Source: Bedellia somnulentella (taxonomy: Eukaryota > Arthropoda > Insecta > Lepidoptera > Bedelliidae). From it: DNA of 64,000 nucleotides. This document shows positions 32,448 through 64,000 of the stretch, piece after piece (position 1 is the stretch's first letter; each line of letters opens with the position of its first letter). A program made the position numbers and the translations under genes. Below the pieces are notes generated by a model, which had not been told where the DNA came from, did no database searches, and saw nothing but the letters and a program-made list of their open reading frames with translations. Location of the stretch: contig OY755191.1 in the NCBI GenBank assembly GCA_963576735.1, forward strand, positions 14,041,608-14,105,607. The letters run 5' to 3'.

Positions 32448-32534
32448 ATCATGAATAACCTTTGCATTATATAAAAAAGTAATTGCCTGTATTTAAATTG
32501 GTATTTCGTTCCTTCGCGTTCTTTCTTTCTAACA

Positions 32535-33042
32535 ATTCGGTATGGAAAGTTTTACAAAAGTGGTGCTCATTACGAAACCATTTCGAGATATTATGTTTTT
32601 AAAACATATTTCCTTGAAATTAAATTAAACAAAGCTAAGATGACCGTTATTTTAACAAAATACTGTAACAGTATTTGACCTTCAGCGTTATTTCAAAGAC
32701 AATCGTTTTTGCAGTTTATAAATAAAATATCGAAAATGAAAAGTTTGTTTAGTATACTCGTAATATCGTAATAATTTCATTTGAGATCACAAATTCGTGA
32801 AATGTTTTGCAATCAGCAACATTTTTATTTAACATTTCGCTTTATTTGCATGTCGCCACGTGATATTTTCGATCGATGACGTCATTAAGTACAAACGTTG
32901 AACAATTTTTAAAAAATCATAACTTTGCAATTACTCATTTTAGATGTAAAATATTCAAATTAGTCTTTTATTTTCTTGTTTACTATCGAATAAAAATATT
33001 CAATAAATACCAAAAAAAACTTTGCATACCGAATTGCAAGAT
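32535..33042. mobile_element. MITE-X copy 1 (AATTCGGTATG ends)
   Basis: The ends read AATTCGGTATGGAAAGTTTT and the reverse complement of AATTCGGTATGCAAAGTTTT. The approximately 508-bp interior has no ORF but includes GATGACGTCATTAAGTACAA. A second copy lies at 61979-62487. It is a two-copy non-autonomous DNA transposon of unknown superfamily. Confidence 0.75.
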
Positions 33043-41707: not shown

Positions 41708-41853
41708 ATGTCGGGATGGTATTGGCGGATGATTGCTTTCAAGGCAGCTTTTGTGTTCACCTGTGTATGCTCTTATCTAAGAGCTGATGATAATGTGCAG
41801 AAACTACCCTTCTGTAATCCTCACACCACCGACCACGGTTCGGAGAACAACGA
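41708..41853 (+). CDS. EIF2AK3: PERK exon 1 (signal peptide)
   Basis: It encodes MSGWYWRMIAFKAAFVFT through HTTDHGSENN with a GTAAGT donor. The hydrophobic core fits an ER signal peptide. Phase 2 matches exon 2. Confidence 0.82.
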
Positions 41854-44800: not shown

Positions 44801-47800
44801 AGATGCGCTGGTTGCCTATAATTTCGAGATTTCTGAGGTATCTAAAGAAGAGTGGTCACAGGTATTTTCCAATTGGTTCAGACGTATGGAAAAGTGTATA
44901 CGTGCTCAGCGTGAATACTTTGAAAAGATCGATACTTGTAATAAAGAATAAATTTTATAATTTTTGAGTATCTAGTTTCTCTTGGCATGCCCCTCGTAGT
45001 TACCAAAATAAGAAGCTGAGTGTCAGACAAGTTGATCGACTCACAGATTTTTTTAAAAGCGTATTTCTTATGAAAATCATCGCTTTTGTGTTTGTGAAAT
45101 TAAATACTATGTAAGTAAAGTTGTAGATCATATTTCTCCTATTGCCTTTTTCAATATAAGTTCAGAGATTAGAATTATAATCACAATACTAATAACAAAA
45201 AGAAAACCGACTTCATAGTTGGAAAACAACCGAAAATAAACAATCTAGTACTAAAAAGTCCGAAATAAGTTTTTTAATTGAATATGAGTACTGTAATTAA
45301 TACCTTAGCAATTTCTTTATTCCACACGCGTCAGTTCAACCTACCTAAATATTAAAATTCTCTTAAATTAAATTGATGATAATGATCCAACTGACCAACA
45401 TTTATTGCAAAATTGACACTGTTTTTAGTCAATTTATTTCAGGCACTCTGATTGTGGACATTTACCTCTAAAGGTTACCCACCAAAAACATTATCTATGT
45501 ACTTGTAACCAGTAACGTATAAAGAATGTTCAATGGAGAGTCATATAACATAAACATACATATATACATATACTCACGGCTATAAATCCCTAGAAGGGGT
45601 GGCCAGAGCTAAGGAATTAGAAATTCCTCGGCCACTTTTGGAAGTTAAGTAAGAAAAAGATGGTGAAATAAAGGTTGTTGGTGATGGGTCTCCAATCGCA
45701 TCGCCCAAAAACCCTTAAAAGCCCTAATACCGTTAGTCGCCTCTTACGTACACCCACCGGCAGAAATGGGGTAGTGCTGTTTTAACACACCGACACTACG
45801 CAGCTATATAACATAAACTATAATAATAAAGAAATCTCATTTAGGAACCTTAGGTTTAGCATGACTTAATCTAAATTTTCTGCTACTGTTTCTTTTAGTA
45901 AATTGGACGTTAAACAGAGCCCAACAGCTGTCAGGCAAGGGGAGCCTTTAATTATTTGTTCTTGGCTTCTGTGCACTGATAACCAACCAGTGGTGATGCC
46001 CATAAATCATAGCACTTCATATAACACCCATTAAAGTCATCTGATATACTTATTCCAAGTTATACCACACAGCAAATAAGTACCAATATGTGAATTCTTT
46101 CCATTTCAGTTTGATATTAGTAAGTTCACTCGACGGTCACCTCACAGCCTTCTCCACAAATGATGGCACCAAGCTGTGGCAGGTGGAGACTGCACCACTC
46201 CTGTCTTCCAACTTACATCATGTTGAGGTGAGATATCTTTGAAGTTATAGTGTCTGGTAAGAAGAAGGTGGAGTCTTAGATCAGTTCCCTTTCTCCCACA
46301 TAGCCCATATATGTTCCGACCGAATGGCTCAAGCCTATCTACAATAAGAGTGATTTCGTTTTAGTCTACTACGCTGGCAAAGTGTAAGTTGGCAGACTAA
46401 CGACTACTACCTTTACAGTTGCCAAGACCATTTACATACCGTCCCCACCGAGCACGGAATCCTCTTAATTTTTGAATATTTAACCCTTTTTAGCCTGCAA
46501 TATCCTTCCAAACTAACTAGGGTATCCTATCGAAACCGATATCGCCGGACTCGAAGCCGGGCGCATTACCACTAGACCACGAAAATCAATTCTATGCATA
46601 GTAGAAATTAGTGTCAGTGTATGTATGCAAGAGTTTTATATAGAGGCATGCCAACCATCGCTTCACATAATTTAAGACAACTATTTATTGAAAAGCCATT
46701 TTGAAATTGAAGACAGTATCAAATAACTAAATCTGGTATTTTTTGTGAATTTGCATCAACATCGCAACTCTTACTCAGTTAATCTAGGGAAAAGATCGGG
46801 TAGTGCTGTTGTAATCCGAAAGTAACCATTTATAATATGTTTTTATGATTGCAGTTAACATCAAATGGCCAATGGGTGCGTCTGGTGCCATCCCTAAGCG
46901 GATCATTATACGCTATAAGTGGGGACTCCATTGAGAAACTGCCCTTCGATGCTGAGTCTTTGCTAACCGCTTCCTTCAAATACTCGGATGATCTTGTTAT
47001 TGCTGGTAAGTTTAGAAACAAGCTGTGTAGTGTCGGCTTAAAATAGCACTACCCCATTTCTTCCGGTGGGTGTACGTAAGAGGCGACTAACGGACTTAGG
47101 GCTTTTTTTAAGGAATTTTTGGGCGATGCGTTGTTGGAGACTTATCACCAACAACCTTTATTCTACCATCTTTTCCCCACTCAACTTCCAGAAGTGGCTG
47201 AGAAATTTCTAATTTCTCAGCTCTGGCTACCCCTTTTAGGGATTTGTAGCCGTGAGTTTATGTATGTATGTTTAGAAACAAATGTTTTTAGTATTGTTTT
47301 GATACGTAGATAGTAAAATGAATAGTCATGTTTTGCTACCTTTTCTTAGTAGATAGAATTTGGTCACATAACGATGTTTATAATTTCTAATATTCGAATT
47401 GTGGTTGTCAGGGCGCCTCCATAACTACCATTTTATTCCAGACTTTTTATAAGCTTTTAATATTAACTTTCTTAAGTAATTATTAGTCAAAGTGTCAGAA
47501 AACCTACAACCTCCTTTATTTTACCATTTTTCACCAACGTAATTTCCAAAATAGCCAACTCCTGCTGGCTACCCGTAAAACTTGTTGTAGAAATCTTTGG
47601 GGAAGGCATAGGTCTAGGACTGGTCTATTGGCTGAAAGATGATGAAGATTTGCTGCCAACTCTTTTGGAATATATAGCTTAAACATGTGTATTATACAGG
47701 TTCCCGCGAAACAGTCTGGCTAGGAGTATCCGCCCAATCAGGCCGAGTGATCTACCGATGTAGCGGGGCGGGGTGTGAGGGGGCGGGGGCGGAAAAAAGC

Positions 47801-50800
47801 GAAGGGGATGAGGCTTTGTTGGTCATCAGATGGACTGGAGCCACCCTCAGGGCTTTGCAACCGCATAGCGGACATGAGAAGTTAGTATTTAAATGTTATT
47901 TTTATAGGTTTTAAGTTTTGTGAAGACTGTCCATAAAATCAGATACTTCAAGTTTAAGTATCTACCAAAGACATAATGAAAATTGAAGGAAGCAGATGGC
48001 TGAGGGCAGCACAGGACCGGTCGTTGTGGGAATCTTTGGGGAGGCCTATGTCCAGCGGTGGATGTCAATTGGCTAATGATGATATTTTTAATAAAGTTAA
48101 ATTTGATTAAGTTAAGTATGAAGGTCTGAGAATTTTGATAGGATCTTACAAAGTGGTGATTGATATACTGTGTCAACCCCAATGGGAGCGGGTGTGCCCG
48201 ATTATGGTACCTCAAATATATTGCTCCTCACGCGAAAGTCGGAAATCTTCACTATTGGAATACTATTGGCTTGCAAATATATGGGTACATTGTATGCTGA
48301 GCCGAGACCTTACTGTTAATTACTGTTTATAAGTTTGTTTTTAATACCAAATAAACATTTTTCTTACTTATAAATGTGACAGACTTTGCACATATATCTG
48401 TGTATATTTGTGGTCCTTCGAGGTGGAAATGTATATATTAGAGTAAAACTACAACAACTAAAACTATATGGACTAGTTTTTGAACTATATGGAATGTAAA
48501 AGATGTTATTAAAGGAAAGAAAAGTTTCGACACTGGCGGGGTTCGAACCCGCGACCTTCGGGTATACGCCCCCGTCGCTCTGCCAACTGAGCTACAGTGT
48601 CAGTCCACTTCGAAGGGTTCGAACCCCGCCAGTGTCGAAACTTTTCTTTCCTTTAATAACATCTTTTATTTATGAGTAATAATCCCCACATGAGGAATTC
48701 ATGTCAAAAAACATTAAATTATATGGAATGTTTTAGTTTTTGGCCACATTTTGCTATAAACATCAACCAATTAACTCCTAGGTCATGCCTGTACTGATGC
48801 ACATGTTTAGCATGCTCAGATGGACTCAGTCCGAACTAGACGCTCTGGGCAGACGTGATCTCTCATCGAATGCATCATCCCAGGTTGAGATTGTATATCC
48901 CGCGGAAGTGTGGTGGTCGAGGCCTCTTGAGTGCCAAAACCATATAGATAAGGCGGGGTATTCAACCTCAGAAACTATTTTTTGACGATGACGGATGATA
49001 GTATTCGGGGAGAGGTGGTCGCTAGTGATAAAGGACTGTAATCGTTGGCCTCACAAGATAGGCGAACCCCGGAGGTACTTAGCACCTCTGATCGGGAGTC
49101 CGTATGGAAAGAGAAGAAGCTGCACGGGAGGTTTTACAAGGTACTTCACGAATCTTTCGAAGCCTCCCTGCATTGGCTACGTTTCGGAAACCTCTTTGGG
49201 GAAACCGAAGGTTTTGTCTGTGCAATACAAGACCAGGTTATCAAGACGCGGAACTATCGGAAATACATCCTAAAGGACGGTACCAAAAACGTTTGTCGAG
49301 CATGTGGCCATCCCGGAGAGTCACTTAGGCATGTTATTTCCGGTTGTTCGGCTCTTGCTAACACTGAGTACTTGCACAGACACAACCAAGCAGCCAAAAT
49401 CCTGCATCAGGAGCTCGCTCTGAAATACGGACTCTTGCAACAGAGGCTGCCGTATTACAAGTATCTGCCGGAGCCAATCCTAGAAAACGACCGTGCAAAA
49501 ATCTTATTGGGACAGATCCGTTATCACGGACAAGACTATTCTAGCGAATAAACCTGACATCATGGTATGGGATCGGTCGCCGCCGAGGGTATTTCTAGTA
49601 GATGTCACTACCCCTCATGACGAGGGTCTCGTGAAAGCCGAAACCGAGAAGCGTCGGAAGTATCTCGATCTGGCTCACGAGATCACCGACATGTGGGGTG
49701 TGACTTCGACAGAAATAATCCCAATTATTTTGTCCGCGAACGGGTTAATTCCAACCAGCCTCGCGACCAACTTGAGGCGGTTGGATTTCTGTGGCGAGTC
49801 GGTTCCAGCTCAAATGCAGAAAGCGGTGCTGCTTGATACGGCTCGGATCGTTCGTCGGTTCTTAAACCTGAGTCCCTGACCCCGACCGACTGTCTTAATT
49901 TTCTTTTTTGGCCATGGGAGAGGCGAGAATAAATGTTATTAATAACATCATAAATTATCCAATTATCTACCATTTTACAATACCCCTAAAAATTTTGAAG
50001 AAATTAACCAAATAAGATACCTCTTTTCAACTTACTATTATTATTATGTCACAACAACATGCTGAGTCAGTAACTATTTCATTTCTCATATTGGATTTAA
50101 TATATTGCTTTTACTGTTTGTTTCTATTTCTTATATTGTTAAAATTAATTCAGGAGCAACGAATAAATAGCTGTGTTTCTTTGAACCTACCTAATAGCTA
50201 CAAAAACATTGCTTTACAAAAATTGGCTGACGTGGCAACCATTTCGTTGTCCAACGTATTTCGCTTTAATGTTTTGTATTTACTATTAATTACATAAATA
50301 AATACATATACTCACGTCACGGCTATAAATCCCAAAAAGGGTAGCCAGAGCTTTTGAAGGGGAGAAGGTGGCAGAAATAAAGTATCGTTGGTGATGGGTC
50401 TCCAATCGCATCGCCTAAAAACCACTTTAAAAAAGCCCATAGCCTTAGTCGCTTCCTACGACACCCGTGGGTAGAAAGAGGTACTGACATTCTCAGCCGG
50501 CACTACACGGTATTACACACTATTAATTATATTGTTAAAATCCACTCGTGAGCAACAAATAACTATAACGAACATACATGTTTTTTCTCTCTTCATTGCC
50601 GTGTAGATCCGGCTCAGAATGTCGTTACCCCTTTCCACCCACGGGTGTCGTAAGATGCGACTGGTATTGGAGCTTTTTATTGGATTTTTGGGCGGTGCGG
50701 TTGGAGACCCATCACCAAAAATCTTTCTTTTACCATCTTTTCCCCACGCAACTTCCAAAAGTGACTGAGGAATTTCTCATTCCAAAGCTCTGGCTACCCC

Positions 50801-50988
50801 GTTAAGGGATTTATAGCCGTGAGTATATGTACATGTTTCCTAGTGTAACACGAATGGTTCCCAGATGGAACTTCAGCGTGGGCTCGCACTCGGTGTCGGG
50901 CGGCGGGGCGCGCTGCGCGGGCGGGCGCGGGGGGGCGGTGCGGGTGGGCGCGGCCGGGGCGCTGCGAGCCGAGCGGTGGGCCAGACAG
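41708..50988 (+). CDS. EIF2AK3: PERK / EIF2AK3, 5' part (signal peptide and luminal exons 1-5)
   Basis: PERK is the ER-membrane kinase that senses unfolded proteins and phosphorylates eIF2alpha. Exons 41708-41853, 46110-46227, 46855-47005, 47700-47880 and 50865-50988 join in frame. They begin with a signal peptide (WRMIAFKAAFVFTCVCSYLR). Beta-propeller-like luminal repeats follow: LILVSSLDGHLTAFSTNDG, SLSGSLYAISGDSIEKLPFD, VWLGVSAQSGRVIYRC and [12 protein letters not shown]. They align in order with the human luminal domain. The plus-strand gene stops at exon 5, 40 bp before an N gap. The remaining exons are on the minus strand at 51433-56746, and exon 5 is repeated there at 57639-57762. See the findings for the probable mis-orientation. 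Confidence 0.93.
41854..42572. other. PERK intron 1, AT-rich
   Basis: No supported feature before the SINE2 at 42573. Confidence 0.5.
42573..42942 (-). repeat. SINE2 copy
   Basis: Reverse SINE2 with the (ACATA) tail side first and a head ending at TGGACTATCATGTCG. Confidence 0.88.
43091..43348 (-). repeat. SINE1 copy with 12-bp target duplication
   Basis: Reverse SINE1 flanked by ACTTATTACATA at 43079-43090 and 43349-43360, with about 13 extra bases after the SINE head. Confidence 0.85.
43708..44996 (+). mobile_element. mariner transposon
   Basis: The inverted ends CGAGGGGCATGCCAATAGAA (left) and, reverse-complemented, CGAGGGGCATGCCAAGAGAA (right) extend to about 31 bp. TA lies at 43706-43707 and 44997-44998. 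The length of 1289 bp is typical of mariner. It is inserted in PERK intron 1. Confidence 0.93.
43885..44951 (+). pseudogene. mariner transposase, inactivated
   Basis: It starts MELSRRDFRAMIYYDFKKG and contains the helix-turn-helix region (RPTVFNWFAEFKRGR) and TGDETWLYNYDPE with the first catalytic Asp. It also has the HHDNAAPH-type segment (partly out of frame) and PPYSPDLAPCNFYLFPKIK with the third Asp. An in-frame TAA near 43963 and a frame break near 44459 disable it. Confidence 0.9.
45556..45805 (-). repeat. SINE1 copy with 13-bp target duplication
   Basis: Complete reverse SINE1 flanked by ATATAACATAAAC at 45543-45555 and 45806-45818. Confidence 0.92.
46110..46227 (+). CDS. EIF2AK3: PERK exon 2
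   Basis: It encodes LILVSSLDGHLTAFSTNDG through SSNLHHVE. TTTCAG acceptor, GTGAGA donor. It aligns with human PERK VIISTLDGRIAALD. Confidence 0.93.
46318..46590 (-). repeat. SINE3 copy
   Basis: Reverse copy of the SINE3 at 31666; the head on the minus strand reads CGTGGTCTAGTGGTAATGCG and CCGGCTTCGAGTCCGG. Confidence 0.8.
46855..47005 (+). CDS. EIF2AK3: PERK exon 3
   Basis: It encodes LTSNGQWVRLVPSLSGSLYA through SDDLVIA. TTGCAG acceptor, GTAAGT donor. A SINE1 is inserted 16 bp into the following intron. Confidence 0.94.
47022..47269 (+). repeat. SINE1 copy with 12-bp target duplication, next to a splice donor
   Basis: Complete forward SINE1; GTTTAGAAACAA at 47010-47021 and 47270-47281. 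The duplication overlaps the donor region of PERK exon 3 (GTAAGT at 47006-47011), leaving that donor intact. Confidence 0.92.
47495..47585 (+). repeat. Old SINE1 fragment
   Basis: CCTACAACCTCCTTTATTTT..TTTCCAAAATAGCC..TGCTGGCTACCC matches the middle of SINE1 with many differences. Confidence 0.5.
47700..47880 (+). CDS. EIF2AK3: PERK exon 4
   Basis: It encodes SRETVWLGVSAQSGRVIYRC, a Gly/Glu-rich insert and LLVIRWTGATLRALQPHSGH. The acceptor is TACAG and the donor GTTAGT. A run of G-tracts (47765-47793) lies inside the coding sequence. Confidence 0.93.
47975..48090 (+). repeat. LINE-B 3' fragment (RTE-like)
   Basis: GGCTGAGGGCAGCACAGGAC..GGGGAGGCCTATGTCCAGCG is the end of an RTE-like ORF (RAAQDRSLWESLGEAY type). 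It is the same family as 61337-61562. Confidence 0.7.
48122..48200 (+). repeat. LINE-A-like 3' scrap
   Basis: GGATCTTACAAAGTGGTGAT..GTCAACCCCAATGGGAGCG resembles the LINE-A terminus with divergence. Confidence 0.45.
48498..48667. repeat. 53-bp inverted repeat enclosing a tRNA-like sequence
   Basis: The left arm 48498-48550 and right arm 48615-48667 are exact reverse complements: AAAAGATGTTATTAAAGGAA.., extending into the tRNA-like T-arm. A 64-bp loop holds the rest of the tRNA-like sequence. The DNA could form a cruciform. Confidence 0.85.
48529..48601 (-). tRNA. tRNA-like sequence, probably a pseudo-tRNA
   Basis: On the minus strand a 73-nt sequence has a perfect 7-bp acceptor stem (GACACTG with CAGTGTC), a D-arm (GCTC..GAGC) and a T-arm (GCGGG TTCGAAC CCCGC). 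The anticodon arm (ACGGGGGCGTATACCCG) does not form a normal 5-bp stem with a 7-nt loop, and no U33 precedes a sensible anticodon. It is read as a tRNA-derived repeat rather than a working tRNA. Confidence 0.6.
48785..49915 (+). pseudogene. RLE-type LINE (R2/R4-like) C-terminal fragment, copy A
   Basis: It encodes HWLRFGNLFGETEGFVCAIQ, then CRACGHPGESLRHVISGC (a CCHC knuckle), PEPILEN, YWDRSVITDKTILANKPDIM and VFLVDVTTPHDEGLVKAETEK. The KPDI..D..K pattern fits the restriction-like endonuclease of R2/R4-type LINEs; the clade is inferred. One extra base near 49500 breaks the frame relative to copy B (62990-64000). Confidence 0.75.
50297..50512 (-). repeat. SINE1 copy (duplicated segment A)
   Basis: Reverse SINE1 with an internal deletion; its counterpart in the inverted block is 58123-58357. 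Confidence 0.85.
50598..50828 (+). repeat. SINE1 copy (duplicated segment A)
   Basis: Forward SINE1 ending about 36 bp before PERK exon 5; its counterpart is 57800-58035. Confidence 0.88.
50865..50988 (+). CDS. EIF2AK3: PERK exon 5, plus-strand copy
   Basis: It encodes [17 protein letters not shown], a Gly/Arg-rich stretch and [10 protein letters not shown]. The acceptor TTCCCAG and donor GTAATT match those of the minus-strand copy. WNFSVG is the human PERK sequence. It ends in phase 0, 40 bp before the gap. Confidence 0.92.
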
Positions 50989-51028
50989 GTAATTATACTT
51001 TTACCGTCAGACTTCAAAAAAAGAGTTT

Positions 51029-51228
51029 NNNNNNNNNNNNNNNNNNNNNNNNNNNNNNNNNNNNNNNNNNNNNNNNNNNNNNNNNNNNNNNNNNNNNNNN
51101 NNNNNNNNNNNNNNNNNNNNNNNNNNNNNNNNNNNNNNNNNNNNNNNNNNNNNNNNNNNNNNNNNNNNNNNNNNNNNNNNNNNNNNNNNNNNNNNNNNNN
51201 NNNNNNNNNNNNNNNNNNNNNNNNNNNN
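51029..51228. other. Assembly gap, 200 N
   Basis: The run is exactly 200 N, which suggests a placeholder join between contigs rather than a measured gap. PERK orientation flips across it. Confidence 0.99.
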
Positions 51229-51233
51229 CTGAA

Positions 51234-51290
51234 TAAACTCATGGCTATAAATCCTAAAAAGCCTCTGTTGTAAGTTGAGTGGAACAAATT
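51234..51290 (-). repeat. SINE1 fragment
   Basis: AATAAACTCATGGCTATAAAT and GTAAGTTGAGTGGAACAAA are degraded pieces of reverse SINE1 at the edge of the gap. Confidence 0.6.
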
Positions 51291-51432
51291 AAAGAATGAT
51301 TGGTCTAATAGAAAAATACTTAAACTTATATTAAATACAAAAAAGGCAACACATACATTCTGAAAACAAACCATTTGCTAACCCAATTCACTATACAAAA
51401 TTCCATCAATATAAAATAATCAAAAAACTTAC

Positions 51433-51639
51433 TTGCTCGGCAAAGTTATCCTTTTAATAGCATAACACCGATTGTCGATATTGTTCCTGGCTTCGAAAAC
51501 CACTCCGAAGCCGCCGCGACCCAAACACCGTAAAGGGGTAAAACTCTGCCTCGTACCTGCCTGCTGGCCGCCCCACCACCACGAGCGGGGGCGGCGGGGG
51601 CGGCGTGGCCGGGGCGGCGGGGCGGGGGGAGAGAACAGT
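51433..51639 (-). CDS. EIF2AK3: PERK kinase N-lobe exon (P-loop), one-base frame break
   Basis: A Pro/Gly-rich start leads to GRYEAEF in one frame and to [30 protein letters not shown] in the next. Both parts match PERK ([14 protein letters not shown]) with correct spacing, if one base of the TTTT run near 51538 is discounted. The break is thus a homopolymer error or a real lesion. CCCCCAG acceptor, GTAAGT donor. Confidence 0.85.
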
Positions 51640-54600
51640 CTGGGGGAGATAATAAATATATAAATACACAGAATTATACAAAGGAGAAAACAGTAGGTTC
51701 ATATGTAGTTGATAGCAAAGATCGGTCTAATTTACAGGAAAATATATTTTGTTAAAATGACAATAAAGATAACATAACATAAACATTCACGCCGAATATC
51801 CCCGAGGGGTTTGGCAGAGGTGCTAATACTTATGAACGTCACGTGACTTAGTCACCTGTTCAGAGTACCCACGTTTTGCTTGAACAGTGTACTCACGTGA
51901 TAGGGGGTAGACCTATCGCCGTTTTGTACGAATACACTGTCACATGACTAAGTACAACTCAGCCTTGTGGGTTTCCTCACGATGTTTTCCCTCACCGTTA
52001 ACAATCATGATAAATTAACCACACATATGTCTTTAGAAAAGACAAATTGGTATAAGCTCGACCCGGGATTTGAACACTTGTCGCTTGCACGTTAACCGTG
52101 TTCTACCCATTGAGCTATCACGGTCACGGAGATAATAAATATATGAATAAACGGAATTAAAACTTACAATATTACAATATGGGATACTAACTCAACGATA
52201 TATTTAATATTATATAATACACATATAAAAAGAAACAATTGTTTATGCTCAGCAGATAAATGTTGATTGAGATATTAGTCACGATATATCGTCAATAACA
52301 TACAAAGATACACATACTCACGGCTATAAATCCCTTGCTGGGGTAGCCAGAGCTAAGAAAATAGAAATTCCTCAGCCACTTTTGGAAGTTGCGTGGGGAA
52401 AAGATGGTGAGATAGAGGTTTTTGGTGATGGGTCTCCAACCGCATCGCCCAAAAATCCCTTAAAAGCCCCAATACCGTTAGTCGCCTCTTTCGTACACCC
52501 ACCGGAAGAAATGGGGTAGTGCTATTCTTAGCCGACACTACACAGCTCTCATAGTTCGGAATACTTACAGCTAAATCATACAATAAGGGTTTATAAATTC
52601 AGTTATAAACTAAGCGAATAACAAGTATTCGAAAATAGATTGGATTCGCAAATTGGTACACAGTAGGGCTTCCTCGCTAGTATATCTTTGTTGTCCTCAT
52701 TGTTTATATAATAGGTAACCTTTTGACGTAATATCAGTGCAATGTAAGATCTGAGTGAGATGTCATTGTGTGTGCGAGTACAAAAAAGGAAAGAGCTTAT
52801 TCATTACACTTTGTCGTTTCTGAACTCAGACGTCCTAAGTTACTGCCGCAGACGCTTGTTATTCCACTACACAAATTTGTCTACTTTTCAGAAGCCTAGC
52901 GTTCTGAACGTTATTCCACTAGTCTGAATTCAGATTCTGTGGCTCTCAGACGTCTTCATTCAGACAAATGCACTGACCTCCATTATACTATATAAGTACG
53001 CTGGACTAATTATAGGCTGGTGACAGTGAGGCGATTTGATTTTCGCCATTTTGGCGCTTACGGCAGCAGTGAAGGAACAAGGAACTAATAAAAGAGATGG
53101 GACAGTAAGATAAAATATATCGATAAAATGTTTCTGCTTAAAGGAAAGGCTAAGTTTTATCGAAACGAAACTTTACAGCACTATTGATTTATAATTGTTT
53201 CTAAAAACCATAGATATATTATGCTTTATGGTAAAAAAACACTGGCCATTTTGCAGTTTATGTCATATTAGTTCCTCGTTCCGTCATTGGGGCGCTTCAA
53301 ATTGGCACAGTAAATAGCTGTCATTTTGATACGTATCATTAGTCCAGCGTACTTATATAGTATAATGGAGGTCAGTGACAAATGGAATAAGCTCTTAAGG
53401 AGAGCTGTCTCTTTAGCGCGGATTAGAGGTAGATAGAGAATAACAAAAAAAAATCGGCTACAGCAAAGGCAAATTGGTAGTAGTACAACAGCGGTCATTA
53501 ATGTAATAACGAATTTAATACATGTTATAAAGAGAAGAAGGTTTCTTATATAATAAAAAATATAACATCTTTCACATACCTCGGTCCAATCATCAAATTC
53601 ATGAGCAAAGCCGAGCTTATCGCTATCAACAGCACCTCTTTCCACCAGAACCACAGCGAGGACACGTGGACATGGATGTGGTCATCATATTCCACCTCAA
53701 TACCCTCAATTTCGTGGGTGTCTTCGGCCTCCAGGTTTTGCTCGCAGGTCGGGTCTTGGTAGAAAATTAGGCCGTTGCTGCCTGGAATTTTGGTATAGAT
53801 AAGTTAATTGTTATGAATGTGAATTTAACAATAACACATTTAGACCATATTATACCATATATACCATATTATACCATATTATACCATATAGTTTCCTATC
53901 AACATTTAATTCATCTAACGAAAGAATGGTACAGATGATGATTATGACAAAAAAAGGGTCGGAGGTTCAAATAACTTATTAGAAAAAATATATCTGTTTC
54001 AATTTTGTTTGTCAACTCAAACGTTCACACCGTATATCACCGAAGAGGTGGGCAGAAGTACTAATACTTTCTGAACATCACGTGACATTGTCACCTTGTG
54101 TTCAGAGTACCCACATTTTGCTTGGATAGTGTACCCATGTGATAAGGGGCAGGCCCATCGCCGTCTTGTACGAATACACTGTGACAAGACTAAGTATAAC
54201 TCAGCCATATGGGTTTCCTCACAATGTTTACCCTTACAGTTACAAACCATGATAAATCAACCACACCTATGTATTTAGAAAAGACAAATTGGTGTAGGCC
54301 CGATCCGGGATTAGAACGCTAGTCGTCTGCACGATAAGCGGGGTTCTACCCACTGAGCTGTCATGTCGTATTTCAATAAATAAGTGAAAAAATTGATTGG
54401 ACAAATAAAAATGGGTTACCAAATGTTGAAAATCAAAGTACTGATTGTTTTCCTGTACCGAGAAACAACCAACAACGTGTATCGATATTTGGGCATAGAT
54501 AATAATCGCTCCCTATCGCAATTTAACTTAGTAAAAGTGTTGTAGGGGCCGACCAAATCTATAGGTTCAAATAACCAAAATATCTTAAGTTGCTTTTTAC

Positions 54601-57600
54601 ATATATACATATGCTCAGGGACATAAATCCCAAAAAGAGGTAGCCAGAGCTTCAGAGCTAGAAACTCCTCAGCTACATTTGGAAGTTGATAGGGGGATAA
54701 GCTGGTAGAATTACTACCAGCTTTAAAAGTATTTAACATACATACATTCATACATATACTCACGGCTATAAATCCCTAGAAGGGGTAGCCAGAGCTAAGG
54801 AATTAAAAATTCCTCAGCCACTTTTGGCAAATTGAGTGGGGAAAAGATGGTCAAGTTAAGGTTGTTGGTGATGGGTTTCCAACCGCATCGCCCAAAAATC
54901 CCTTAAAAGACCCAATACCGTTAGTCGCCTCTTACGTACATCCATCGGTAGAAACGGGGTAGTGCTATTCTAAGCGACACTACACGGAGTACATTTAAAT
55001 AAAATATATGCCGTGTAGTGCCGGCTTAGAATGTCACTCCCAACGGTTGTCGTAAGAGGCGACTAAGGGTATGGGGCTTTTATCAGTAGGTTTCGGAATA
55101 TTTCTAGTGGAACTAAAGTATGATTGGTATTGGGTCTCCAACCGCATCGCTCAAAAACCACCTATAAAAGCCCATACCCATGGGTAGATAGGGGTAGTGA
55201 TATTCTTAGCCGCCACTACAGGGCAAGTTGCTTGCTTCTCTATTGTAAAATGCTGCTATGCTTAATGACGATTTATGATGATATTCAAACAACCGATACA
55301 CTGATTAAATAGCTACATAGAATTTCGCACGTAATTAGAAGACTAGAAAAATGCTGTGTAGTGTCGGCTTAGAATAACACTACCCCATTTCAACCCGTGG
55401 GTGATCGTAAGAGGCGACTAAGGGTCTAAGGGCTTTTCAAGCGATTTTTGGGCGATGTGGTTGGAGACCCGTCACCAAAAACATTTATTATTACCATCTT
55501 TTCAACACTCAACTTCCAAAAGTGGCTGAGGAATTTCTCATTCCAAAGCTCTGGCTACCCCGTTTAGGGAATTATAGCCGTGAGTATATGTATGTATGTA
55601 ATTAGAAAACATATACTTAAGATTGAACACTTATAAAAACAAATATATTTAAAAGACGACACAATGTAGTTACATTTAAAAAAAATAGTCTGGACTTTAA
55701 ATTACTTAATCCTATTAATTAATATTATAAATGTGAAACTTTAGATGTGTAGCTGTGTAGTGTCGGCTTAGAACAGCACTACCCCATTTCTTCAGACGTA
55801 AGAGGCGACTATCGGAATTGGGGCTTTTTAAGGGATTTTTGGGCGATTTTTTACATATACTCACGGCTATAAATCCCTTAACGGGGTAGCCAGAGCTTTG
55901 GAATGAGGAATTCCTCAGCCACTTTTGGAAGTTGATTGGGGAAAAGATGGTAATAATAAATGTTTTTGGTGACGGGTCTCCAACCACATCGCCCAAAAAT
56001 CACTTTAAAAGCCCCTATACCCTTAGTCGCCTCTTACGATCACCCACGGGTAGAAATGGGGTAGTGTTATTCTAAGCCGACACTACACGGCAAATATTTT
56101 TATTTATATATTTTAATGAATATAAAACAGACATACCATGCATAGCATTACTCCCCATGTGCGACAATAAGCGCCAACGTCTTCGGGTCTAGCGGTTGCA
56201 AGGCGGTGCTCTTGTCTCCGGGACCAGCTAATAATGGTTGTGAGGAAGACAGCTTCCACAGACCAGACTTGGATGGAACTGTCAGTTCTTGGGATGACCA
56301 CGTGTCTTCTTGGATGTATAGCTGAAGGGTTTTTGTATATATATTATTATATAGGAGAAACCGAAGGGGACGGTAATTATAAGTGCTTAGTAGGATGAGT
56401 ATGATGTAACAGTAAGACATTTGGTTAAAACAGTTAAGTATCTTGAATTTTCTTTTAAAATTCAGTATCGCAGGCAAGACAAACTTACTTAGTTACTCAA
56501 AGTTTTTTTTTTCCTCACGTGTCTACCTTGTTTAGTACCTTTAAGTTTTGTAGAACTTAAAGTATCTTAAATATTTGTATTAGTTTTACTTAATAAATGT
56601 GTCTTTTTACCCCTTTAGAAATGTCAGTAGTTACCTGTTGGTGATGCATGCCCAAATAAATGGCGGGGGCATTTTCCCCCAACAAGGACAGTTGCTCTAT
56701 GGAGCCGTCGCGGAACCGCCACGCGCCCCCCGAGCGGGACGTCCAGCTGGAATACAATTCAATGCCTATATTTACATCCATATCTACGGCAGAAAGTGGA
56801 TTACATAAATACAGGTTTCATCGCTCTAGGAAGCAAAGTGTAAAAAAAACATTGTAATATAAAACCGGTCCTTCTTGGTGGGTCTCTTTTTTTAACAAGT
56901 TTCATTATCGATTGAAATATATTTTAATGGAAAGATTATGCATTAAAATAACTAATCTGAGGTATGCACCAATTAAGCTGAACACTTAATTCAATTGGTA
57001 TATAAGACGACAAAAAAAGCAGTAAGAGTTTGACCACACGACCACGTTACGGCGCACGTGAAACGTCAGCCAATTAATATCGGAATTATTGTCGGAGCAT
57101 TCCATGTTATGGCATTGTGCAAAAATACATTGCCGCGTCGTGCAGATACACGTTGCCGTGTTGCCTTTTTCTTTATACTTCTTCTTATAAGCAACTAGAG
57201 CAGAATATATGTATTCACATTATGTATTATACATGTTATCGTCTTATCGTCGTCGTTATGTGTGGCGACGTGGTACAACGGTGCGGTGTTTGTTTTGTGA
57301 AATTTTACGACGCCGCACCGTGGCCGCACAATCATGTGGCGGCAAATTTTATGTAATATATAAAAAATATAAAAACAAAAAAAAACTAATTAAAAACAAA
57401 ACAGACACAAAAAACAGAAACAAAAATTCTTGCTTAAATCTTTATTAATATTATTTATGTCTAAAAAGGAAAAAACCTTCCGCCTTCAAAAAACCAACTA
57501 AAAAGAAAATACTTTTCTGAAAACCGCATCCAAATAGCTTTATCCAAACGCGAGATAATCGCGGACAAACATACATACATAAAAACGTTCGAAATGAGAA

Positions 57601-57762
57601 ACTCCTTTTTGAAGTCTGACGGCAAAATCTATAATTACCTGTCGGGCCCACCGCTCGGCTCTCACTGTCCCGGCCGCGCCCACCCGCACGTCCCCCCCGC
57701 GCCCGCCCGCGCAGCGCGCCCCGCCGCCCGACACCGAGTGCGAGCCCACGCTGAAGTTCCAT
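51433..57762 (-). CDS. EIF2AK3: PERK / EIF2AK3, rest of gene on the opposite strand
   Basis: Minus-strand exons in 5'-to-3' order are 57639-57762 (repeat of exon 5), 56635-56746, 56152-56321, 53580-53777 and 51433-51639. They encode [20 protein letters not shown] and YLGMHHQ, then [17 protein letters not shown]. Next is [20 protein letters not shown] with the transmembrane [18 protein letters not shown], and finally the kinase glycine loop [15 protein letters not shown] with the catalytic Lys in YAIKRI. All match human PERK in order. One or more exons seem missing: exon 5 ends in phase 0 but 56746 needs two preceding bases, and there is a similar mismatch before 51639. The rest of the kinase is not in the window. 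Confidence 0.92.
51772..52126 (-). repeat. SINE2 copy
   Basis: Complete reverse SINE2 in the PERK intron, with a head at GAGCTATCACGGTC and an (ACATA) tail. Confidence 0.88.
52308..52545 (-). repeat. SINE1 copy
   Basis: Complete reverse SINE1 in the PERK intron, ending CACTACACAGCT. Confidence 0.88.
52971..53376. mobile_element. MITE with 40-bp inverted ends and 8-bp target duplication
   Basis: ACTGACCTCCATTATACTATATAAGTACG.. (52972-53010) is repeated exactly as its reverse complement at 53338-53376. GACAAATG lies at 52963-52970 and 53377-53384. An 8-bp duplication fits hAT or P-type transposases; the CACTG-type end does not settle which. Confidence 0.82.
53580..53777 (-). CDS. EIF2AK3: PERK transmembrane exon
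   Basis: It encodes [20 protein letters not shown], an acidic His-rich juxtamembrane part, [20 protein letters not shown] and MIGPR. The acceptor used is the second AG of ATTCCAGGCAG, which restores the conserved DNG and the reading phase. GTATGT donor. Confidence 0.9.
53836..53892. repeat. Short tandem repeat (TATACCAT-type)
   Basis: CCATATTATA/CCATATATA units are repeated about six times. Confidence 0.7.
54012..54370 (-). repeat. SINE2 copy
   Basis: Diverged reverse SINE2 with head ACCCACTGAGCTGTCATGTCG. Confidence 0.85.
54600..54712 (-). repeat. SINE1 fragment (3' half)
   Basis: Reverse SINE1, tail half only, immediately followed by another reverse copy. Confidence 0.8.
54737..54987 (-). 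repeat. SINE1 copy
   Basis: Complete reverse SINE1 with a (CATA)n tail. Confidence 0.9.
55010..55225. repeat. Head-to-head SINE1 fragments
   Basis: A forward head fragment (55010-55095, GCCGTGTAGTGCCGGCTTAG) is followed by a reverse head fragment (55118-55225, ending CCGCCACTACAGGGCA). They form an imperfect inverted pair without tails. Confidence 0.75.
55353..55598 (+). repeat. SINE1 copy
   Basis: Complete forward SINE1; GTAATTAGAA occurs at 55331-55340 and 55598-55607, with 12 extra bases before the SINE head. Confidence 0.88.
55750..56093. repeat. SINE1 inverted pair (forward fragment and complete reverse copy)
   Basis: A forward head fragment (55750-55847) abuts a complete reverse copy (55853-56093). 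Confidence 0.85.
56152..56321 (-). CDS. EIF2AK3: PERK luminal exon (LYIQED)
   Basis: It encodes [18 protein letters not shown] through [10 protein letters not shown], matching human PERK LYLQSS..VLVGSDEFD. The TTCAG acceptor and GTAATG donor are canonical; its outgoing phase fits the transmembrane exon. Confidence 0.92.
56635..56746 (-). CDS. EIF2AK3: PERK luminal exon (YLGM)
   Basis: It encodes [20 protein letters not shown] through YLGMHHQ. TTCCAG acceptor, GTAACT donor. Its incoming phase does not fit exon 5, so an intervening exon is missing or unrecognised between 56747 and 57638. Confidence 0.88.
56747..57638. other. PERK intron sequence, GC-mixed, unexplained
   Basis: The segment about 57030-57350 is richer in CG than its surroundings (ACCACGTTACGGCGCACGTG.., GCCGCACCGTGGCCGC). 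It has no matching ends I can find and no PERK-like exon. Confidence 0.4.
57639..57762 (-). CDS. EIF2AK3: PERK exon 5, minus-strand copy
   Basis: It has the same 124-nt length, acceptor and donor as 50865-50988, with a few substitutions (for example [17 protein letters not shown]). It is one arm of the inverted duplication. Confidence 0.92.
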
Positions 57763-57799
57763 CTGGGAACCATGTGTGGAGTTACACTAGGAAACATGT

Positions 57800-58035
57800 A
57801 CATATACTCACGGCTATAAATCCCTTAACGGGGTAGCCAGAGCTTTGGAATGATAAATTCCTCAGTCACTTTTGGAAGTTGCGTGGGGAGAAGATGGTAA
57901 AATAAAGATTTTTGGTGATGGGTCTCCAACCGCATCGCCCAAAAATCCAATAAAGAACCCCAATACCCTTAGTCGCCTCTTACGACACCCGTGGGTAGAA
58001 AGGGGTAGCGACATTCTAAGCCGGCACTACACGGC
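57800..58035 (-). repeat. SINE1 copy (duplicated segment B)
   Basis: Counterpart of 50598-50828 in inverted orientation. Confidence 0.9.
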
Positions 58036-58122
58036 AATGAAGAAAGAAAAAACATGTATGTTCGTTATAGTTATTCGTTGCTCACAAGTGGATTTTAACA
58101 ATAAAATTAATAGTGTGTAATA

Positions 58123-58357
58123 CCGTGTAGTGCCGGCTTAGAATGTCACTACCTCTTTCTACCCACGGGTGTCGTAGGAAGCGACTAAGGGTATGGGCTT
58201 TTTTTAAGTGGTTTTTGGGCGATGCGATTGGAGATCCATCACCAACGCTACTTTATTTCTGCCACCTTCTCCCCTATCAACTTCCAAATGTGGCTGAGGA
58301 GTAACTCTAAAGCTCTTGCTACCCTTTTTAGGATTTATAGCCGTGAGTATATGTATT
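58123..58357 (+). repeat. SINE1 copy (duplicated segment B)
   Basis: Counterpart of 50297-50512 in inverted orientation. Confidence 0.88.
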
Positions 58358-58671
58358 AATTTATGTAATTAAGAGTAAATATAAAACATTAAAGCGAAAT
58401 ACGTTGGACAACGAAATGGTTGCCACGTCAGCCAATTTTTGTAAAGCAATGTTTTTGTAGTTATTAGGTAGGTTCAAAGAAATACAGCTATTTATTCGTT
58501 GCTCCTGAATTAATTTTAACAATATAAGAAATAGAAACAAACAGCAGTACCGTCTTTACCATAAGGGCACACGGGGCCAGTGCCCAGGGCCCCCCATCTC
58601 AGGGGGGCCCCGAACAACCAACAATTTCTGTCACACATTTATTTTCAGAACATTTTTGTCGGGCACATTAC

Positions 58672-60623
58672 TGTTAAACAAACCTCTTTTGTATTTAACA
58701 ATTTATGAATTTATGATTTGTCATTAAGAATTGACGTATATAAAATAGGTTTTTTTTTTGTTCTATATTTTTTCCTGTGTATTATAGAAGTTTTTCAAGA
58801 ATGTGAATATGTTATTTTTATATTGATTAATATATCAATTTTAACGTATTTGGTGTTTACTTTAACATTGGTTATGGGCAATTAGTTAATAAACATTTTT
58901 TAAATTATATAAAAAATGGAAAACCCAAGTACATCATATATATTGTAGATAGACCTAAAGATGGAAATATTATTAAGAGTAAATGGGTATTCAAAGAGAA
59001 AGTAGATCCTAGCGGGAAATTTGAAAAATATAAAGCTCGTTTAGTTGCAAAAGGTTTTAATCAAATTTATGGTATTGATTACCAAGAAACTTTTTCACCT
59101 GTAGTTCGTCACTGCACATTACGTTTATTGTTTGCTATTAGTGTTGAGTATGATATGGATATTGAACATATTGATGTAAATACTGCTTTTCTGCATGGAA
59201 ATTTATCAGAAACTATATATATGGAACAACCTGATGGTTTTGTTGTTGAAGGACAGCATAAAGTTTGTTTGCTAAGAAAAAGCTTATATGGTCTTAAGCA
59301 AGCAAGTCGTGCTTGGAATGAAAAAGTTAACGAAGTATTGATTACAGATGGCTTTATACAATTAAAGAGCGAAAAATGTGTATATATTAAAGATGCAGTT
59401 ATTATTGCACTTTATGTTGATGATTTTTTTGTTTTTAGTTCTGATAGGCAGCAAAAAGAAAAACTTTACAAATTACTTAAATCTCATTTCGATATTAAGT
59501 TGCTGGGACCTGTCAAACAAGCACTAGGTATGAAAGTGGACCGAGATAGGGAGAACGGTATTTTAACTTTAACTCAATCGGAATATATTAAAAATGTTTT
59601 GATTAGATTCGGAATGGAAAATTGTAACCCGATTTCTACACCAATGGAAGTAAATTTTAACTTGCCTAAAGCACAAAATGTTGATAATAGATTTCCATAC
59701 CAAGAACTTATTGGTAGTCTAATGTATCTTGCTGTATGCACCCGTCCAGATATAGCTTTCTGTTGTAGCAAATTAAGTCAATATAACACATGTTATGATG
59801 AATCTCACTGGCTTGCTGCAAAACGTGTTTTAAGATATTTGTCTGGCACAATCAACTACGGACTAAAATTTAGGAGAGGAAGTAGTAAAATTGAAATTTT
59901 ATCCGACGCAGATTGGGCAGGGGATACTAATGATAGGAAATCATACTCTGGACTTATTTCGAAATTTGGTCATTGTGTAGTTAATTGGTACAGTCAAAAA
60001 CAAAAACTTGTTGCTTGTTCTAGTACTGAGGCTGAATATTATGCTCTTGATAATTCAGTGAAAGAAGCAAAATTTATCAACAACTTTTTATATGAATTAA
60101 ATTACAGGAATCACAAACCAATTACTGTATTCAACGATAACCGTAGTACATTAAAAATTGTTGATACGGAATGTTTCAGACGTACAAAACATATTGACGT
60201 ACAACATCATTTTATACAAGAATGTGTTAAGAATAATATTATTGATTTGTGTTATAAACCATCTAAAGATTTAGAAGCAGATTTAATGACAAAAGCGTTA
60301 AGTAAAGTGAAACATGAATATTTTGTTAAGTGCTTAAATTTATGATTTTTGTTATGTTTTCTGTTTATGCTTCAGTTATTATAATTGTACAATTTTGGTT
60401 ATTGTTAATTGTTCAATTAAGGGGCAGTGTTAAACAAACCTCTTTTGTATTTAACAATTTATGAATTTATGATTTGTCATTAAGAATTGACGTATATAAA
60501 ATAGGTTTTTTTTTTGTTCTATATTTTTTCCTGTGTATTATAGAAGTTTTTCAAGAATGTGAATATGTTATTTTTATATTGATTAATATATCAATTTTAA
60601 CGTATTTGGTGTTTACTTTAACA
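58672..60623 (+). mobile_element. Ty1/copia element, internally deleted, LTRs identical by eye
   Basis: LTRs 58672-58867 and 60428-60623 are both 196 bp, begin TGTTAAAC and end TTTAACA. A primer-site-like TTGGTTATGGGC follows the 5' LTR, and AAGGGGCAG precedes the 3' LTR. The flanks ATTAC and TTTAC differ by one base. Only the reverse transcriptase-RNase H part remains; gag, protease and integrase are absent. It is nested in the hAT. Confidence 0.92.
58930..60345 (+). CDS. Copia reverse transcriptase and RNase H
   Basis: The open frame has no start of its own. RT motifs are SKWVFKEKVDPSGKFEKYKA, RLVAKGFNQIYGIDYQETFS, DVNTAFLHGNL, LLRKSLYGLKQASRAWNE and YVDDFFVF. RNase H motifs are LSDADWAGDTNDRKSYSG, SSTEAEYYAL, FNDNRSTLKI and RTKHIDVQHHFI. 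It is uninterrupted to the stop at 60345. Loss of the upstream polyprotein makes it non-autonomous. Confidence 0.93.
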   Translation, partial: YIIYIVDRPKDGNIIKSKWVFKEKVDPSGKFEKYKARLVAKGFNQIYGIDYQETFSPVVRHCTLRLLFAISVEYDMDIEHIDVNTAFLHGNLSETIYMEQPDGFVVEGQHKVCLLRKSLYGLKQASRAWNEKVNEVLITDGFIQLKSEKCVYIKDAVIIALYVDDFFVFSSDRQQKEKLYKLLKSHFDIKLLGPVKQALGMKVDRDRENGILTLTQSEYIKNVLIRFGMENCNPISTPMEVNFNLPKAQNVDNRFPYQELIGSLMYLAVCTRPDIAFCCSKLSQYNTCYDESHWLAAKRVLRYLSGTINYGLKFRRGSSKIEILSDADWAGDTNDRKSYSGLISKFGHCVVNWYSQKQKLVACSSTEAEYYALDNSVKEAKFINNFLYELNYRNHKPITVFNDNRSTLKIVDTECFRRTKHIDVQHHFIQECVKNNIIDLCYKPSKDLEADLMTKALSKVKHEYFVKCLNL

Positions 60624-60779
60624 TTTACATTGTTTTCACAAATCAGTAATCGATGACGAATCGAGCGCCTATTCTTACTGTACTAATTCTGAAAGCAGAA
60701 AAAAATCTTAAACTTGTAGAAAAATAGTTAATTTTCTTTTCGGCTTCGACAAAACGATGAAAAATTTTGACACATCATT

Positions 60780-61020
60780 TATTTGCAAATAGAGTCCCGA
60801 AGTCTTTTTCGGAAACTAGATGGTCTGCACGCGCTAATGCTATTAATGCTTTGCAAAATGGTAATTTAAATATTTCTGAAATATTCAATCAACCAGGAGA
60901 CACTAGAAAGAAAGCCCAAAACCTTGCAAAAAAATGGGAGACTGCCTTTCCAACGGAAATATGGAATGATCTTTTGGGAGTTATGAATGAAACAAGTCTA
61001 AGTTTACAGAATAAAACTAT
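60780..61020 (+). pseudogene. hAT transposase fragment
   Basis: It encodes FSETRWSARANAINALQNGN and AQNLAKKWETAFPTEIWNDL. The ETRWSAR..A..AL motif is typical of Tip100/Zaphod-type hAT transposases. It is cut by a SINE1 at 61049. Confidence 0.75.
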
Positions 61021-61048
61021 GACCATGGACGTTGTACATATACTCACT

Positions 61049-61227
61049 TATATATATATACTTTTGGAAATTTTAGTGGGGAAAGTTGGTAATATAAAGG
61101 TTGTTGGTGATGGGTCTCCAACCGCATCGCCCAAAAATCCCTTAAAAGCCCCAATACCGTTAGTCGCCTCTTACGTACGCCCACCAGAAGAAATGGGGTA
61201 GTGCTATTCTAAGCCGACACTACACGG
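61049..61227 (-). repeat. SINE1 copy inside the hAT
   Basis: Shortened reverse SINE1 between ACGTTGTA repeats (near 61029-61036 and 61228-61236). Confidence 0.8.
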
Positions 61228-61336
61228 CACGTTGTAACGAATCTCTAATCAGTTATGTCAATACCGCACGCATTAATTCTGATTAGTACGAAGAAACGAA
61301 ACTTCTACTGATGAAAATCCATATGCTGACTACAAA

Positions 61337-61562
61337 GAAATTGAAGAACTACGAAACTCAAGTGGCGCAAGGCAGGGCAAATTGCAGACAGAACCGACTT
61401 TCGGCCGTTGTTACTCGAAGGTTCTGGGGTGACGGCTACGTACCGGACGAAGTGGTGTGGGTAGGCCTCCCACATGGTGGTTGGATGAGGGCAGCGCAGG
61501 ACCGGTCGTTGTGGAAATCTATAGGGGAGGCCTAGTGGACGTCTATTGGCTATATGATCATG
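61337..61562 (+). repeat. LINE-B 3' end inside the hAT, 12-bp target duplication
   Basis: It encodes RRFWGDGYVPDEVVWVGLPH and GWMRAAQDRSLWKSIGEA. It is flanked by TGACTACAAAGA before 61337 and after 61562. An RTE-like LINE, 5'-truncated. Confidence 0.82.
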
Positions 61563-61978
61563 ATGACTACAAAGATACAATTGAATGAAAAAAACTTCGC
61601 AGCAAAAGCATACCTTTTTTTGAAGGATCATCAGAGACTTCACAGTTGAGAGGCAAGGAAAAGTTTCGTGTAGATACTTTCATTCCCATAATTGACACAT
61701 TAAGCATGAAAGCATTAGAAAGAACCACCAAGCACCAAGAAATGAATAGTCGATTTAATTTTCTTTGTCAGTAAACAACAATCGAATCTGATAAGTTGAC
61801 CAAAAAATGCAAAGAATTGCAATGTTTTCATTTAACCCAATATTAAAAAAAACATAGCAAAACAATCTGTGAATTTAAATATCTCAATCTTACATAATAA
61901 ATAAAATCAGATAAAATGGAGGTAACTTTTCCAAATGTAGAAATTGCTACAAGAATATTTCTTTGTCTAATGGTTACC

Positions 61979-62487
61979 AATTCGGTATGCAAAGTTTTAT
62001 AAAAGTGATGCTGATTACAAAACCATTTCGAGATATTACGTTCTTAAACAACATTTTCTTGAAATCAAATGAAATAAAGCTAAGATGACTATTATTTTAT
62101 CAAAAAACCGTAACAGTGTTTGACCTTCAATGTTATTTCAAAGACATTCGTTTTTGCAGTTTATTAATAAAATATCGAGAATCATAGGTTTGTTTAGAAT
62201 AATATCGTAATAATTTCATTTGGGATCACAAATTCGTGAAATATTTTGCAATTAGCAACATTTTTACTAAACATTTCGCTTTATTTGCATATCGCTACGT
62301 GATATTTTCAATCGATGACGTCATTAAGTACAAAAGTTGAACAATTTTTAAAAAATCATACTTTGCAATTACGAGTACTCATTTTAAATGAAAAATATTC
62401 AAATCAGTTTTTTATTTTCGTGTTTGCTATCGAATAAAAATATTTAATAAATATAAAAAAAAAAACTTCGCATACCGAATTACAAGA
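61979..62487. mobile_element. MITE-X copy 2 inside the hAT
   Basis: Same ends and body as 32535-33042 (AATTCGGTATGCAAAGTTTT), with scattered differences. Confidence 0.78.
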
Positions 62488-62989
62488 ACAACTGAGTAAT
62501 TTGTCAATTATGTACATAGAAAGTGATATCCTTCAAAATTTTACTTTAAGGACAGAATAGAAGATATTTCACAACAGAAATCCCGAAAGAAAACGTTATA
62601 GTAATCGTCACCACAAAGCCCAGCAGCATTGCAATATCATTAATATCAATTACATAATAATAAAACATACTATATTTGATTACCTATAATAAATGGTCTT
62701 ATTCATATTTATAAGTTAAAAAGTTTTAATTAATTAGTTTTTTTACTTTCCAAAAGGGCCCCAAATTCTAGTGTGCCCAAGGGCCCCAGCCTAGTATAAG
62801 ACGGCCCTGACAAACAGTAAAAGCAATATATTAAAGCCAATATGGGAAATGAAATAGTTACTGACTCAACATGTCGTTGTGACACAATAATAATAGTAAG
62901 TTGAAAAGAGGTATCTTATTTGGTAAATTTCTTCGAAATTTTTAGGGGTATTGTAAAATGGTACATAATTGTAATAATTGTAATATTGT

Positions 62990-64000
62990 AATTTATTATT
63001 AATAACATTTATTCTCGCCTCTCCCATGGCCGAAAAAGAAAATTAAGACAGTCGGTCGGGGTCAGGGACTCAGGTTCAAGAACCGACGGACGATCCGAGC
63101 CGTATCGAGCAGCACCGCTTTCTGCATTTGTGCTGGAACCGAAACGCCACAGAAATCCAACCGCCTGAAGTTGATCGCGAGGCTGGTTGGAATTAACCCG
63201 TTTGCGGACAAAACTATTGGGATTATTTCTGTCGAGGTCACACCCCACATGTCGGTGATCTCGTGAGCCACATCGAGATACTTCCGACGCTTCTCGGTTT
63301 CGGCTTTCACGAGACCCTCGTCATGAGGGATAGTGACATCTACTAGAAATACCCTCGACGGCGACCGATCCCATACCACGATGTCAGGCTTATTCGCTAG
63401 AATAGTCCTGTCCGTGATAACGGATCGGTCCCAATAGATTTTGGCACGGTCGTTTTCTAGGATTGGCTCCGGCAGATACTTGTAATACGGCAGCCTCTGT
63501 TGCAAGAGTCCGTATTTCAGAGCGAGCTCCTGATGTAGGATTTTGGCTGCTTGGTTGTGTCTGTGCAAGTACTCAGTGTTAGCAAGAGCCGAACAACCGG
63601 AAACAACATGCCTAAGTGACTCTCCGGGACGGCCACATGCTCGACAAACGTTTGTGGTACCGTCCTTTAGGATGTATTTCCGATAGTTCCGCGTCTTGAT
63701 AACCTGGTCTTGTATTGCACAGACAAAACCTTCGGTTTCCCCAAAAAGGTTCCCGAAACGCAGCCAATGCAGGGAGGCTTTACGGTCCACGAAAGATTCG
63801 TGAAGTACCTTGTAAAACCTCCCGTGCAGCTCCTTCTCTTTTCATACGGACTCCTCATCAAAGGTGCTAAGTACCTCCGGGGTTCGCCTATTCTGTGAGG
63901 CCAACGATAAGGGGGGTCAGTCTTTTATCACTAGCGACCACCTCTCCCCGAATACTATCATCCGTCATCGTCAAAAAATAGTTTCTGCGGTTGCATAACC
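62990..64000 (-). pseudogene. RLE-type LINE C-terminal fragment, copy B
   Basis: Inverted counterpart of 48960-49915. The frame is uninterrupted from HWLRFGNLFGETEGFVCAIQ through CRACGRPGESLRHVVSGC and KPDIVVWD..VFLVDVTIPHD to RRFLNLSP (63790 to 63062). It lacks the extra base of copy A and continues beyond the right edge. Confidence 0.75.

Follow-up and report, generated by a model that had tools for sequence, protein, structure and literature searches.

A PERK gene folded back across an assembly gap in a lepidopteran genome: very probably a reversed contig that overlaps its neighbour and represents the other haplotype

The gene for PERK (EIF2AK3) lies folded back on itself in the 64-kb window, i.e. 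the whole stretch of DNA analysed here. As the first-pass annotation had described, exons 1 to 5 are found on the plus strand left of an assembly gap and exons 9 to 5 on the minus strand right of it, so that exon 5 is present twice, in inverted orientation. We consider it highly probable that this fold-back is an assembly artefact, in which the contig right of the gap (contig B, from 51229) is mis-oriented and overlaps the contig left of it (contig A, to 51028) as the other haplotype. The overlap, an insertion in one of its copies, the exon order and the gap can be read directly from the assembly (Table 1). The sequenced bases fit two ordinary contigs from one locus, and the gap, which has exactly the 200 N claimed for it and is the only N run within the window, is the sole source of the fold.

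Table 1. Coordinates of the main features, counted from the first base of the window
Feature	Position	Strand	Basis or remark
TMEM169 gene in contig A	13345..14478	-	upstream of PERK, anchors contig A
PERK exon 1, signal peptide; 3' end approximate	41708..41842	+	tblastn of relatives' PERKs
PERK exon 2	46110..46227	+	tblastn and exon edges
PERK exon 3	46855..47005	+	tblastn and exon edges
PERK exon 4	47700..47880	+	tblastn and exon edges
Contig A end, empty site; overlaps B from within intron 4 through exon 5 into intron 5	48956..51028	+	A vs B comparison
Single 8-bp target CTGTTTGT, empty site in A	50114..50121	+	A vs B comparison
PERK exon 5, A copy	50865..50988	+	splice sites, frame, position
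Assembly gap, 200 N	51029..51228		single junction creating the fold-back
PERK exon 9, kinase domain start, B only; apparent frame breaks vs relatives	51432..51639	-	tblastn; EIF2AK3 structure match
PERK exon 8, B only; transmembrane segment, labelled via alignment with relatives	53580..53777	-	tblastn
PERK exon 7, B only	56155..56321	-	tblastn
PERK exon 6, B only; G run with apparent frame break; uncertain 5' edge, 56746 or 56783	56635..56746	-	tblastn; edge and break by eye
Inverted B copy of 50114-51028	57599..58544	-	A vs B comparison
PERK exon 5, B copy	57639..57762	-	splice sites, frame, position; A vs B comparison
hAT-like insertion, 4,265 bp, B only; ends CAG...CTG; nested Copia	58545..62809		flanked by 8-bp target duplication, 58537-58544 and 62810-62817
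Short Ty1/copia element within the insertion	58672..60625	+	identical 198-bp LTR matches (58672-58869, 60428-60625) and RVT_2 frame 58831-60342, 504 codons
Inverted B copy of 48956-50121, reaching the window's last base	62810..64000	-	A vs B comparison

The roughly 2 kb before the gap had been said to match contig B in inverted order, and the coordinates we checked by BLAST of A against B agree with that claim within a few bases. Two inverted matches (A 48956-50121 with B 64000-62810, 93.4% identical over 1,192 columns; A 50114-51028 with B 58544-57599, 90.9% over 952 columns) are collinear and stand far above the next-best one, a 520-column repeat at 87.5%. The homology extends to the last base of A (51028), as would be the case if the contig ended at an arbitrary point of an overlap, and to the last base of the window (64000), whose edge cuts its far end. 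Repeat-family likeness could be ruled out as the source of the inverted match, given that the three blocks without SINEs (48956-49880, 49881-50120 and 50841-51028) have, at E values up to 1e-3, one match each besides themselves within the window, which is the copy in B. The two SINE-bearing blocks of the overlap have 27 and 51 window matches, self included, as expected of repeats. The 259-aa frame at 63065-63841, labelled “RLE LINE” in the first-pass annotation, gave no Pfam match, and that label, which is based on motifs, is putative.

Within the overlap, contig B is longer than contig A through one insertion, at which A shows the empty site: the 8-bp target CTGTTTGT stands on both sides of the insertion in B and once in A. 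The length difference between the 2 kb of one copy and the 6.4 kb of the other, as they had been reported, is this 4,265-bp insertion. An 8-bp target duplication and CAG...CTG end motifs are features of hAT elements, and their presence here suggests such an element, with a tentative family assignment that we express as “hAT-like”. The ends of the insertion, CAGGGCCGTCTT and CAGTACCGTCTT, agree by eye at 10 of 12 bases, and a gapped local alignment of its 120-bp ends scored 24 and so did not exceed the best of 200 shuffled controls, which scored 27. The two frames scanned (60761-61198 and 61589-61774) matched no hAT domain of Pfam up to E 5, and a likeness of the insertion to hAT transposase is presumed on our part. 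The nested Ty1/copia element is flanked by a near 5-bp repeat (ATTAC/TTTAC, by eye), and the insertion also contains a piece of a repeat family common in the window. Elsewhere in contig A, positions 32530-33041 hold an 87.5% identical copy of the insertion part 61975-62487. One empty and one filled site imply that both copies go back to one ancestral site and separated before the element inserted, although this alone does not separate alleles from duplicates. The real biology that remains is modest, namely a transposon in PERK intron 4 that one copy has and the other lacks.

These features would be explained if contigs A and B represented the same locus of a heterozygous lepidopteran, with an overlap of at least 2.07 kb from PERK intron 4 to intron 5. 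Contig A would then be the haplotype without the transposon and contig B the haplotype with the hAT-like element and its nested Copia in intron 4. The two divergent haplotypes were probably assembled apart, with duplicate purging missing the overlap and leaving it unmerged, and the scaffolder would then have joined the end of A to the unique tail of B (the part beyond A), tail to tail, in the wrong orientation and with a fixed 200-N gap. With B reversed and the overlap collapsed, the locus would read TMEM169, PERK exons 1-5 and then exons 6-9, and the remainder of the kinase would lie outside the window. The flip alone leaves an overlap that needs to be collapsed.

How far the two copies have diverged bears on whether they are alleles. 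With the insertion and one target copy removed from B, the last 2,073 bases of A differ from inverted B at 104 of 2,067 compared positions (5.0%), and there are nine internal indels of 1 to 30 bases. Seven of the nine are longer than one base, which rules out consensus error as the cause of the differences, so that the copies differ biologically and not through read error alone. Between the two copies of exon 5, 7 of 124 bases differ, with five codons changed and three amino-acid changes in 41 complete codons. A divergence of 5.0% is high for alleles: diversity at 4-fold sites ranges from 0.0044 to 0.0428 among 38 European butterflies in the part of PMC6672018 drawn on here, and our value exceeds the top genome-wide butterfly value given there. 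However, false heterotype duplications have been reported from relatively more divergent haplotype regions in the portion of PMC9516828 considered here, and 5% divergence is thus not decisive against alleles. The differences in the overlap, which comprise substitutions, multi-base indels and a whole transposon, could be those between two haplotypes, and we infer that the copies are haplotypes (alleles) rather than diverged duplicates. They might instead be Z/W (or neo-sex) gametologs or come from two pooled individuals, joined by the same scaffolding error; this variant of the artefact also gives high divergence together with one empty and one filled site, but it is not needed, and we regard it as unlikely.

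The exon order in relatives favours the reversal of contig B. Among the PERK proteins of 41 relatives, 36 of which are named lepidopterans, all matches to A are on the plus strand and all matches to B on the minus strand in 41/41. The proposal that flipping everything right of the gap would unify the gene held well: with B reversed, the PERK matches share one orientation and follow the protein order in 40 of the 41 relatives, as against a single one in the order given, and that one has only one match in B. Under the same reversal the inverted duplication becomes, as had also been predicted, an overlap of contig ends, and this overlap extends to the last base of A. With B flipped, the one relative that is not monotone is P0025 from Plutella xylostella, an unusual entry of 1,019 aa. 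Contig A is further anchored by the TMEM169 gene, whose best matches are 69-71% identical, the named ones being Lepidoptera. In 15 of the 23 species with contigs in both the PERK and the TMEM169 homologue tables, the two genes lie on contigs of equal length, which we took as the same contig, and the context of A thus looks ancestral. The contigs differ in the remaining eight (Plutella xylostella, Arctia plantaginis, Arctopsyche grandis, Eumeta japonica, Trichoplusia ni, Spodoptera exigua, Scirpophaga incertulas and Timema podura), several of which have short contigs or values perhaps taken from different assemblies. Both P0025 and these eight species count against the artefact reading.

Staggered breaks give the order of flanking sequence, inverted unique part and inverted duplicate, and the segments left and right of the gap are laid out just as such breaks would produce. 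A real small inversion within PERK, with exons 6-9 inverted, the exon 5 segment duplicated in inverted orientation at both breakpoints and the gene broken, would therefore share this segment order. We nevertheless hold it to be very improbable. The junction that would prove it consists of N, so that unlike in an inversion with duplicated breakpoints there is no sequenced breakpoint here, and the far end of B is not reached within the window. The duplicate stops at the last base of the contig, where an inversion would need it to end by chance; a 2-kb repeat with 5% difference should be resolvable by long reads; and PERK would be left broken in the reference. Slightly less credible still is a true inversion inside the gene, with its breakpoints duplicated, that splits PERK in this lineage and leaves the canonical ER stress kinase broken or trans-spliced. 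Were that true, the divergent luminal domain of the protein would reflect relaxed constraint.

The exons on both sides of the gap can be assigned to PERK with some detail. Joined, they match insect PERKs across their whole joined length, with Chilo suppressalis as the best match at 47% identity (best matches 46-49%, the named ones being Lepidoptera), and they match the PERK luminal domain at E 5.4e-32, the matching part lying within the exons of A. The exon with the kinase start matches EIF2AK3 structures at E 1.6e-11, and a structure search with exon 7 returned one unrelated match at E 0.94. In the tblastn matches listed for five of the 41 relatives, exons 1-4 occur only in A (plus strand) and exons 6-9 only in B (minus strand, falling coordinates); exon 5 was not recovered by tblastn of the relatives' PERKs. 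Disagreeing splice phases raised the idea of a missing exon between exons 5 and 6, and a three-frame reading of the intron gave no recognisable candidate. By eye, the relatives are better matched if exon 6 has its acceptor near 56746 and the G run contains a frame break, while short-peptide BLAST of this reading gave no support, its matches falling in another part of the protein. Beyond residue 535 of the relatives, which mostly have more than 900 residues, no match was found in 40/41 at E up to 1e-3 (the residue for P0025 is 846). Contig B, too, thus ends inside PERK, and the remaining kinase must lie outside the window. A tRNA match on the minus strand of PERK intron 4 (48528-48601; Rfam, 55.1 bits) is either a tRNA gene or a tRNA-derived repeat.

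The state of the exons in contig B raises the question of decay. In exon 9, the stretch ahead of the kinase matches the relatives in one frame and the kinase start does so in another (the best E values of short-peptide BLAST with 41 relatives are 5.9e-05 for the former, partly via a proline run, and 8e-04 for the latter), and a similar break is seen by eye in exon 6. These breaks could be consensus errors or real variants, and exons 2-5 of A read open. Such breaks opposite open frames in A, the 5.0% divergence and the three amino-acid changes in exon 5 speak against the artefact reading, and they would also fit an older inverted partial duplication of PERK, in which B would be a pseudogene in decay and the working 3' part would lie elsewhere. 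We give little credence to that history, less than to a small inversion. By eye, the breaks in both exons lie in or near base runs, and one set of exons 6-9 was found in the window, which takes up the order where exons 1-5 leave off. In its 37-residue kinase part, exon 9 has a mean identity to relatives of 0.80, which is 0.93 of the relatives' own level. The same ratio of mean identity to the relatives' own level, for which 34 of the 41 relatives were used, is 0.85-0.94 for exons 1-3 and 0.59-0.60 for exons 4-5 of A, and 0.65-0.76 for exons 6-8 of B, which are thus no more divergent than exons 4-5 of A. The likeness of A exons 4-5 and B exons 6-8 in their unusual divergence fits parts of one gene.

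As an observation on the gene as a whole, the PERK luminal domain is the most divergent or nearly so in comparison with the 34 relatives: exons 4, 5, 6 and 8 rank last and exons 2, 3 and 7 next to last, with a normal kinase start.

The favoured artefact, a mis-oriented and overlapping contig, resembles two known kinds of assembly error. In false heterotype duplications, haplotypes are assembled as paralogs, and an assembly gap that separates the two members of a pair on the same scaffold is listed as a primary mark of false duplication in the part of the study used here (Ko et al. 2022, PMC9516828). Likewise, a divergent pair with a duplicated exon is found here on one scaffold, with 200 N between its members (48956-51028 and 57599-64000) and with haplotype-like differences beyond sequencing error (104/2,067 positions, 9 indels and the 4,265-bp insertion). 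Unlike in the cases described in the part of PMC9516828 used here, the second copy is inverted and carries a transposon; in the main text of that article the word “inverted” occurs 0 times. The second kind is the mis-oriented contig in Hi-C scaffolding. Gaps of 200 N have been reported for a YaHS Hi-C assembly in the part of PMC12134992 considered, and it is from the 200-N gap that we attribute the join to Hi-C scaffolding. According to the sections of PMC9848053 used here, YaHS scores four orientations per contig pair by their contact scores, and misorientated contigs are a counted class of error. As with such contigs, reversal restores the gene order of relatives (40/41), and we infer that the scaffolder chose the wrong orientation. 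In practice, the annotation of this assembly is likely to show a broken PERK, or PERK fragments and a doubled exon, and a false inversion and duplication could emerge from structural-variant calling at this locus. One flip and a purge of the overlap should correct the order.

Other parts of the window hold further repeats and frames. A 622-codon frame at 29423-31288 gave no Pfam match, even at E 5. The frames at 43966-44951 resemble a mariner-type transposase, with a weak HTH_32 match below the Pfam cut-off, and the mariner label is our presumption. For the 746-codon frame at 4882-7119, a search at E 0.01 gave no solved-structure match to its 746-aa product, and a putative GIY-YIG motif is seen by eye near its end. 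This frame matches RVT_1 (Pfam, E 1.9e-10) and lies between perfect 341-bp inverted repeats (4706-5046 and 6981-7321), and the stretch from 4706 to 7321 is probably a young Penelope-like element.
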